This document shows positions 40,225 to 47,460 of a stretch of DNA of 64,000 bases, piece after piece. The notes beneath the pieces are model-generated. The model had not been told where the DNA came from, ran no database searches, and saw only the letters and a program-made list of their open reading frames with translations. The stretch's first letter is position 1. The number at the start of each line of letters is the position of its first letter. A program made the position numbers and the translations under genes. The stretch is from contig NC_060110.1 in NCBI RefSeq assembly GCF_021155765.1, positions 24,388,001-24,452,000 of the forward strand, given 5' to 3'. This DNA comes from Diprion similis. Lineage: Eukaryota > Arthropoda > Insecta > Hymenoptera > Diprionidae.

Positions 40225-40623
40225 TCAGTCTTCTTCCCCCTCCCCCCCCCCCCCCCCCCCTTTGTTGTGCCGTTTGCTCTCTTCCAGTTCTCGTTTAGCA
40301 GCGCTCGCATCGTTCACAGCTTTTGCTATACCTGCCGCACCACCCGCTATCGCGCCTGTGGCACTAAGTCCAGCGAAAATAGGAATCAAGAATGGTAGAA
40401 ATCCACCAACTTTTGAAGGTACCGGTAGAACGCGCGGTGTTCGCACTTTACATTTACCACCTGCTTTTTGAACAGCGATTTCAGCCCCCTTGAGCGCAGA
40501 CTCGATAGCTACTTTTGCATCGTTGCTCGGAATCATAGATCGTTTCGCAGCATTTATAATTTTTCTTAAGGTCACGTTTTTCGGTTTTCGAATTCCCATT
40601 CCTAGTTTCGATTTCACTTTCAT
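40225..40623 (-). CDS. pX-like membrane-active minor virion protein (3' end altered)
   Basis: This 132-residue protein on the minus strand starts MKVKSKLGMGIRKPKNVTLR, has a basic N-terminal third, and carries a hydrophobic Gly/Ala-rich segment (residues about 72-103) that includes GGFLPFLIPIFAGLSA and GGAAGIAKAVND, followed by a charged helix. That layout, and its place after a PLA2-like gene, matches the pX/minor virion proteins described for adintovirus-type elements, thought to help membrane passage. The ATG lies 4 nt after the stop of the PLA2-like gene, so the two could be translated in a coupled way. The last 12 or so residues are a Gly run and acidic residues coded by a poly-C/poly-G tract (40236-40260), so the original C-terminus seems to have been replaced when the tract expanded. 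The family call rests on layout and context; no enzymatic motif exists to test. Confidence 0.65.
   Translation of the reverse strand: MKVKSKLGMGIRKPKNVTLRKIINAAKRSMIPSNDAKVAIESALKGAEIAVQKAGGKCKVRTPRVLPVPSKVGGFLPFLIPIFAGLSATGAIAGGAAGIAKAVNDASAAKRELEESKRHNKGGGGGGEGEED
40236..40260. repeat. Poly-C tract inside the pX-like gene
   Basis: Five C, one T, then 19 C in a row. On the coding strand it reads as a run of Gly codons near the end of the pX-like protein. Its exact length is likely unstable and sets the reading frame of the tail. Confidence 0.85.
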
Positions 40624-40627
40624 TGTA

Positions 40628-40939
40628 TTAGCTCAAATTGGCGTCCGGTGCGAAGATCCGTTTCCACGCTTTTTCAGCCAATACCCTATCAGCCGCGTTC
40701 CTGACTTCAAGATTTTCACGATTCTGCGAGTAAGCAATGTCATGGTTCTTGCAAGCTGCGTCGAGAGGATTGATTCCCGGATCACCTCGCGCGAGTCTCT
40801 TTGTCAACTTTGTACCAGGTCCACAGTATTGATAACCAGGTACGTGCAATTCGACTGGAAGACTGTTGATGATTTTATTCACCAGACCTTTGCCGCGATG
40901 TTGCCGTTTGCTGCTTCGTTTACCTCTGTGCACGATCAT
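40628..40939 (-). CDS. Phospholipase A2-like protein, parvovirus VP1u type
   Basis: The 103-residue product begins with a Lys/Arg-rich stretch (residues 1-23). It then has LHVPGYQYCGPGT (31-43), which holds the YxGxG calcium loop, and LDAACKNHDIAYSQ (59-72), with the His-Asp catalytic pair at 66-67. Loop and catalytic helix are spaced as in the PLA2 domain of parvovirus VP1, a domain also reported in adintovirus/Polinton elements, where it is thought to help particles leave the endosome. The catalytic and calcium residues are intact. The gene runs away from the ATPase with 63 bp between start codons, and a TATA-like CTATAAATA lies 40-48 nt upstream. It is short and single-exon, with the pX-like gene 4 nt downstream. 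No host PLA2 family has this layout. Confidence 0.8.
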   Translation of the reverse strand: MIVHRGKRSSKRQHRGKGLVNKIINSLPVELHVPGYQYCGPGTKLTKRLARGDPGINPLDAACKNHDIAYSQNRENLEVRNAADRVLAEKAWKRIFAPDANLS

Positions 40940-40978
40940 GTTCAGGCTTTGACTGACGGGAAAGGTTTAAAACCGGGG

Positions 40979-46600: not shown

Positions 46601-47384
46601 CTGCGGTGACCGACCAAAGGAAACAATACGAGTCGTTATTTCGGATGTTTACCACAGCCTTCTTATCACTGATGTGTTTCGGCAACAGGGTGTAGGTATT
46701 AAGACCACCTCGAAGTGGTGTATACTTGTTGATGTTGACGGCAAGATTGATAATTTCAAGTAACGACCAGCCTGAATCCTTTTCCTGGAAATCTTCCACC
46801 TTTGTTAACAAACGGTTTGTTACATTTTCGATGAACCATTCCTTAATATCCGTTGTCAGGAGGATGATTTCGTTTCTCGTATTAAAGAATTTGTTCTCTT
46901 CTACTGTGTGATCATCCTTCTTTACTTCGAATTTACAAGCCAGGATAGCGTTGACTTTTAGGCTCCTGGCTTTCTTCAAATCGTTTTTCAGTTTTGTCAC
47001 AGCAAGTAACTTTGCGTCTTCTAGAAACCTCTCTACGTCTTTATGTTTCAAATTGGTGATGGATCCGGTTCGTATTCTTCCCTTGAAAGCAGACTCCAAT
47101 TCTTCCCAGTGTACGTGATCGCTTCGTCTTTGTTTCCGCGTACCGTCACCCGTTGTCCGAAGACGTTTGAATTTTTCCGTCAGCGATTTCAAGAGTCCGA
47201 TGTCTGTGATAATTTTCATTTTCTCACCCATCGTTGAAGCCTTTCGCAGAATTTTGTTTAGAAGCCGGATATTTTGCGTCCCAAATTTAATCCATTTCTG
47301 AATCTCCGTTGGCGATGATTTGTTCAACATTTTGTACGCAGATTCCATAATGTTGATTAATTTCGAACATTTCGCGGATTCCAT
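43644..47384 (-). CDS. Protein-primed family B DNA polymerase (DNA_pol_B_2 type)
   Basis: This uninterrupted 1246-codon ORF carries the exonuclease motifs YADLECLL (about residue 448), FHNLSGYDSHFL (about 593) and LQTDVFLLADVF (about 745). The polymerase motifs are A, FDVNNLYGAAMS (about 840); B, KLMNNAVFGKTMEN (about 990); and C, YTDTDSLIY (about 1088). All acidic catalytic residues are visible. Two Cys/His clusters lie upstream: CDRCLLHF with HKLYC near 393-414, and CHICEKPF with HRDHCHF near 540-562, the latter like an HNH/endonuclease-VII zinc knuckle. The N-terminal 380 residues include a coiled start and a segment with NDSYCFLWSVTAAL, as usual in Maverick polymerases. The enzyme copies linear DNA from a protein primer. 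Length is as expected for a complete gene. It has a TATA box upstream and its own poly(A) signal. Intact status beside broken neighbours is notable. Confidence 0.95.
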   Translation of the reverse strand: MESAKCSKLINIMESAYKMLNKSSPTEIQKWIKFGTQNIRLLNKILRKASTMGEKMKIITDIGLLKSLTEKFKRLRTTGDGTRKQRRSDHVHWEELESAFKGRIRTGSITNLKHKDVERFLEDAKLLAVTKLKNDLKKARSLKVNAILACKFEVKKDDHTVEENKFFNTRNEIILLTTDIKEWFIENVTNRLLTKVEDFQEKDSGWSLLEIINLAVNINKYTPLRGGLNTYTLLPKHISDKKAVVNIRNNDSYCFLWSVTAALRPAENKNPNKISSYPHFSEVLRYDSINFPMSLHKNAISKFEKLNGLSINVFGIDQDGGKKSEIVPIHLSQNKSDKPVIHLLAVETEMTDDDDDVDMDNYKKNKIFHFAWIRNLSRLTSSQISTRNGRTWLCDRCLLHFQSEKYLTKHKLYCTDLNETKVELPTEEEKILKFKNLKHKETVPFCIYADLECLLQATNIQVSENRTICQNHIPYSIAYYLHCTFNDSISEFKINRGKTCIEWFVNKLEELAHSLKKKYLKNIVRMESLNFNQINEFNLSKVCHICEKPFTREAVKHRDHCHFTGRYRGPAHQSCNLNYRKSHTIPVIFHNLSGYDSHFLIKALATTFQGTIQLLPVNKEKYISFTKFVKGTNVQLRFIDSYRFMPSSLEKLAMYLNDNQKAITRKFCTSSEKFELLTRKGVFPYEYMDSWEKLEDVKLPPKEKFYSKLNNQGISDEDYAHACKVWQAFNLKTLGEYSDLYLQTDVFLLADVFENFRQNCYATYNLDPLHYHTAPGLSFDAMLKCTGIELELLTDIDMLMFIEKGIRGGVSQCSNRYAKANNRYMGDAFNPALEESYLMYFDVNNLYGAAMSFALPCSSFEWILDFRQFDVFAITDEAEFGYLLEVDLEYPKELHEMHKDLPLCPEHCIPPISKSKQPKLMTTLLSKQNYVVHYRVLKQCLELGLKLAKIHRVLKFRQTPWLKKYIDLNTDLRKKSNNEFEKNFYKLMNNAVFGKTMENVRKYRDVRLITKWDGRYGARATIAKPNFHSCTIFDQDMIIVELRKTTVKLNKPLYAGFSILDLAKTFIYDFHYKYVKTKFGHQAKLMYTDTDSLIYHFTVPNIYECIKQDLDKFDTSDYPPDNVYGMPLVNKKVLGLMKDECNGKIMAEFIGLRAKLYSFRVMGEDKDQKRAKGVKGSLLKTITFDDYLKCASERENLVERQSLIQSQKHQVYTIEQKKVALSWNDDKRKLFRNTTDTVPWGYETGS

Positions 47385-47450
47385 CTTTCTTACTTCTCAC
47401 GTGCTCTTGACAAGTTTAGACATGAATGATCGTTTGCTGTAATGGTAATC

Positions 47451-47460
47451 CTTTTTATAG
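47451..47460 (-). promoter_or_regulatory. TATA box of the polymerase gene
   Basis: CTATAAAAAG on the minus strand lies 67-76 nt before the polymerase ATG, a fitting distance for a TATA promoter with a leader of about 40 nt. Confidence 0.55.

Follow-up and report, generated by a model that had tools for sequence, protein, structure and literature searches.

What does the compact block of virus-like genes at about 40 to 47 kb of C6:24388001-24452000 (contig NC_060110.1), in the 269 Mb assembly of the sawfly Diprion similis, represent, and does any part of it still serve a purpose? This whole stretch of 64,000 nucleotides is referred to as the window. The first-pass annotation proposed a partly decayed relic of the Maverick/adintovirus type that retains a full polymerase, and domain searches together with longer sibling copies bearing terminal inverted repeats bear this out. 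The block is almost certainly an endogenous insect Polinton/adintovirus (Eupolintoviridae) in truncated and inactive form, and is a further member of an already known group, not a new one. The founding adintovirus paper reportedly described degraded copies in many animal germlines. Adintoviruses are defined, as given in PMC11071296, by a family B DNA polymerase (PolB) bearing an N-terminal OTU-like domain, a hexon and an rve integrase with a chromodomain, and Adintoviridae was renamed Eupolintoviridae by the International Committee on Taxonomy of Viruses in 2025, as stated in PMC12451622.

The search for longer copies with terminal repeats, suggested in the first-pass annotation, succeeded within the same genome. 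The sequences surrounding ATPase matches were retrieved for ten copies, five of which belong to the same family as the window copy (family A, a label coined here). The family-A copy on C4 measures about 13.1 kb and is flanked by inverted terminal repeats of 489 bp that are 97% identical. The part of it that is absent from the window has a capsid gene of the double-jelly-roll type (PF21738, 1.4e-116), a weak match to adenain/Ulp1-type proteases (C48 0.0046 and C5 0.022, both below the cut-offs), a 228-amino-acid (aa) open reading frame (ORF) that is a penton candidate without significant domain match and a further 198-aa ORF of unknown function. Among the five copies with both ends resolved (four of family A and one of family C), 6-bp flanking duplications match at 6/6 positions in four copies and at 5/6 in one; in the other five, the ends lie outside the stretches, were partly inspected (C8, C10 and C13) or were not inspected. 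Because the C4 sibling carries the hexon-type capsid that the window copy lacks, the family qualifies as adintovirus, and the window copy belongs to it in truncated form.

Comparison with the five family-A siblings by blastn sets the limits of the homologous block at 40261-47498, in place of the 40225..47460 given earlier. Sibling pieces are 90.8-97.5% identical to the block and collinear with it over its whole length. The first 36 positions of the earlier range (40225-40260) are a C-rich tract without counterpart in the siblings; it abuts the left break, within the former PLA2X coding sequence, so that the end of the C-terminal PLA2X half from 40260 down is non-element sequence. The window copy is devoid of the capsid side and of both termini, and a deletion at ~41668 has removed part of the ATPase and of the neighbouring gene, its size being about 412 bp relative to four of the five siblings and 373 bp relative to the fifth. 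No match to the capsid, protease, penton-candidate or 198-aa ORF was found in the window (blastn, E 1e-3; tblastn, E 0.01). Truncation, deletion, a frameshift and an in-frame TGA agree with the proposed decay. All pieces of the gene set named earlier are present, with corrections to several genes, and hidden Markov model searches of the ORFs gave domain matches that fit the Polinton/adintovirus set (Table 1).

Table 1. The truncated copy and the features within it, in window positions.
Feature	Position	Strand	Evidence
Truncated Polinton/adintovirus copy, family A	40261..47498	.	blastn against five siblings, identical limits in 5/5
PLA2X, C-terminal half, pX/mu-like	40225..40623	-	PF05829 (Adeno_PX) 1.8e-4, below cut-off
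PLA2X, N-terminal half, phospholipase A2-like domain	40628..40939	-	PF08398 2.3e-12, above cut-off
FtsK/A32-type packaging ATPase, C-terminus removed by deletion	41003..41674	+	PF04665 1.7e-6, above cut-off
Conserved gene of unknown function	41743..42261	+	299-aa ORF in C4 sibling
Coiled-coil-type gene, 133 aa	42295..42696	+	equal length in C4 sibling
Retrovirus-like integrase, catalytic core	42656..43345	+	PF00665 (rve) 1.2e-14, above cut-off
Integrase C-terminal part with chromodomain, other frame	43346..43563 (start approximate)	+	Chromo 8.6e-4 (C4 sibling) and 5.7e-5 (C3 sibling), both below cut-off
Complete PolB ORF, 1246 aa	43644..47384	-	PF03175 4e-27 on 600-aa core piece
Endonuclease VII-like zinc region in PolB, residues 540-578	45651..45767	-	PF02945 1.2e-5
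Candidate vOTU protease region of PolB, residues 236-384 (limits chosen here)	46233..46679	-	Cys254, His369 invariant
Predicted terminal-protein (priming) domain of PolB, residues 87-224	46713..47126	-	predicted fold
Candidate linking Ser204	46773-46775	-	conserved in 61/61 rows

The claim of a full polymerase holds, as the PolB ORF is open throughout. The exonuclease motif and polymerase motifs A, B and C are present. PF03175 was not matched by the full 1246-aa protein (E up to 1) but was matched strongly by its 600-aa core piece, hence long polinton polymerases can be missed when they are scanned whole against family models. A sequence search of PDB with PolB gave no match at E 0.01, and PHROGs returned endonuclease VII matches. 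PolB is identical to LOC124406578 of D. similis except for the parts cut out as introns, and this model omits approximately residues 315-415 and 965-1001, the latter containing polymerase motif B. The introns of LOC124406578 split a single-exon PolB, and other insect models may be affected.

The N-terminus of PolB matches adintovirus models, with a fold match of 8e-21 to a protein of Drosophila-associated adintovirus 2. The predicted fold is little-finger-like and places Ser204 between helix 2 and strand 4; in alignments of 61 rows (the window PolB and 60 of 120 listed proteins, picked by length) glycine follows this serine at +1 in 50 rows. Cys254 and His369 are invariant in the same 61/61 rows. 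OTU proteins were not found among the PDB rows shown, the lists being dominated by the little-finger match, and this is no evidence against an OTU. Taken together, a family B core and a predicted terminal-protein domain stand in one protein, and the predicted fold of the N-terminus supports the earlier description of the element as protein-primed.

An open polymerase in a decayed copy raises the possibility that the host kept PolB as a gene after the rest had degenerated. PolB was compared in six family-A copies, out of at least 139 loci, and is open in the window copy alone; stops occur in each of the other five (5/5) and internal frameshifts in four of those. The PolB motifs are present, and the distance on C6 between this copy and the three further listed loci is about 24 Mb. 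In addition, no stop is found among the private changes of the window PolB, an outcome with a chance of about 0.057 if the sequence were neutral. However, these changes comprise 51 replacements and 10 silent changes (two of the 63 were set aside as unclassifiable), giving a ratio of 5.1 where neutrality predicts 3.02. As the proportion of silent changes does not depart from the neutral one (p 0.23), purifying selection on PolB was not detected. Domestication is thus a very improbable explanation, and we read the open frame as survival by chance. In two other copies silent changes are more frequent than expected (L009, p 0.0036; L016, p 4.7e-7), which presumably reflects evolution before insertion. 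It is likewise highly doubtful that the sawfly retains or expresses the intact PolB of this isolated copy, with its own putative priming domain; if it did, the protein could, for example, act as a dominant inhibitor of related elements or as a trans-acting replicase for the many defective copies.

The close packing of the PolB and integrase genes in the block could also suggest a natural short, capsid-less transposon that moves as a unit of 7.2 kb. This was rejected as extremely unlikely, since no terminal repeats occur in 36-52 kb of the window, the copy has different six-base sequences at its left and right limits instead of a target site duplication, and all five family-A siblings examined, the only ones compared end to end, extend beyond both breaks. 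The left break also falls inside the PLA2X coding sequence, and the integrase and ATPase are broken. That several unrelated insertions lie together by chance, as genes on both strands might suggest, has next to no probability and is refuted by the siblings, which keep gene order and strands across the whole block; as they are collinear over its full length, the block is one insertion, and the earlier concern that it might prove to be several is answered.

Several of the remaining genes required correction. The integrase-chromodomain gene described earlier has both of its parts, but the reading frame is broken in the window, where a frameshift ahead of the chromodomain places the latter in another frame. 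In siblings the rve integrase and its C-terminal chromodomain form one ORF (308 aa on C4), with Chromo matches of 8.6e-4 on C4 and 5.7e-5 on C3, both below the Pfam cut-off, and PHROGs returned transposase matches for the integrase. Similarly, the PLA2-like and pX-like segments are not separate genes as first described: they are halves of one gene, PLA2X, which is fused in single ORFs of 262 aa in the C12 sibling and 276 aa in the C3 sibling, the pX match in these fused proteins being 0.001 and 0.57, respectively, both below the cut-off. The FtsK/A32-type ATPase, which belongs to the adintovirus gene set, gave a terminase match of 0.0032 in PHROGs, while a scan of IMG/VR with it returned two pattern stretches, neither of which was confirmed. 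The conserved gene of unknown function lost its N-terminus in the deletion and carries an in-frame TGA at 42100-42102. Besides the matches named here, PHROGs gave a few weak ones, of unknown function.

The activities proposed for this family, i.e., priming, cleavage, packaging and integration, are ascribed to its full-length siblings. In these, replication would proceed by protein priming, with the N-terminal domain of PolB serving as terminal protein, probably through Ser204, and the terminal protein would probably be released by the adjoining vOTU-like protease. The ATPase would package the DNA into the double-jelly-roll capsid, and the integrase would insert the linear DNA into host DNA, producing the 6-bp duplication. 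The window copy cannot perform this cycle alone because it is devoid of capsid, protease and termini.

Elements of this kind are abundant in the genome. A search with the ATPase gave 156 matches, 150 of which were listed (248 candidates, 150 scored), hence the counts are lower bounds; merged at 1.5 kb, the listed matches represent at least 139 loci on 14 contigs. The loci listed for a contig are confined to a single stretch of 3.9 Mb or less in 13 of 14 cases, the exception being C6 with its isolated window copy; C8 and C11 have one locus each, for which clustering cannot be judged. In a FastTree phylogeny of PolB (56 rows, drawing on 51 of 120 listed proteins), Diprion rows (families A, C and D) group at three distinct positions between rows of other insects, which suggests that several lineages coexist in the Diprion genome. 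Family D is placed beside ant sequences with a support of only 87. The tree contains insect relatives, without a named non-adintovirus Polinton as outgroup; the family-B row of Diprion lacked aligned columns and was left out, and row DIP_x_C13_L026 is probably not a PolB and is to be disregarded.

Individual siblings show rearrangements of their own. An insertion of about 1.35 kb interrupts the integrase gene of one (L016, ~2611-3960), and 4.5 kb are inserted just before the PLA2X start in another (L017, ~5132-9599). Inverted repeats of about 2 kb and 93.5% identity lie immediately beyond the termini of the C12 copy (L013:130-2155 and L014:6173-8195), perhaps as part of a larger surrounding element. 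On C5, at about 6.408-6.419 Mb (L027:1-10000 and L028:1-1509), two family-D copies are arranged as a palindrome whose arms, at least 5.28 kb long and 100% identical, are separated by a spacer of less than 1 kb; this arrangement either arose very recently or is an artefact of the assembly. A family-B copy on C8 contains tandem repeats (L020:2902-3300), for which offsets imply a period of 54 bases.

Compared with known systems, the sawfly elements share with Polintons/Mavericks the PolB, the integrase with chromodomain and the ATPase and, in siblings, the double-jelly-roll capsid, inverted repeats beginning with AG and 6-bp duplications, AG ends and 6-bp duplications being Polinton hallmarks; the window copy differs in lacking termini and a capsid gene. 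Megastigmus wasp adintovirus is the sole virus-named relative among the 120 matches listed for the ATPase and likewise among the 120 listed for PLA2X, although for PLA2X insect gene models, e.g., from Leptopilina, are closer among the matches listed. Its third-party annotation records (FtsK and PLA2X) are 66% identical to the ATPase and 62% to PLA2X, and its PLA2X aligns over nearly its full length, with the PLA2 and pX parts together. In contrast to that virus, the window copy is truncated, its PLA2X is split and the capsid side is missing, while the siblings are multi-copy in a genome assembly. Drosophila-associated adintoviruses 1-3 are described in PMC8363768 as contigs of 13.3-14.6 kb, number 1 encoding PolB, integrase, capsid, protease and FtsK homologs; these are metagenomic contigs whose integration is, according to the part of that source used here, only suspected, whereas the sawfly copies lie in a chromosome-scale assembly. 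The sawfly PolB also shares with the polinton pPolB described in PMC11071308, which has terminal-protein and vOTU domains, a little-finger-like domain, the serine and then the Cys/His candidates, the sawfly vOTU being a candidate; the part of that source used here names no sawfly member.

Outside the block, the description of the surroundings as a host gene desert is valid only locally. However, the nearest host domains were detected at 18-23 kb of the window (8 of 28 listed ORFs scanned), and PolB itself is already annotated as LOC124406578. The host exons at 18094-22889 encode importin/transportin-3 type domains above the Pfam cut-offs and give a protein kinase match of 1.4e-6, just under the cut-off.

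Among the titles listed in a literature search touching Hymenoptera, Diprion and sawflies, none concerned such an element in Diprion or sawflies, a survey of titles only that does not prove absence; PMC6327564 mentions both sawflies and Mavericks. The results back existing ideas and do not open a new field. They document that adintoviruses have invaded a sawfly genome in many copies and as several lineages that coexist there, with termini and duplications resolved. For the polinton terminal-protein domain they provide a case from an insect, predicted from its fold, in which the candidate priming serine is invariant.
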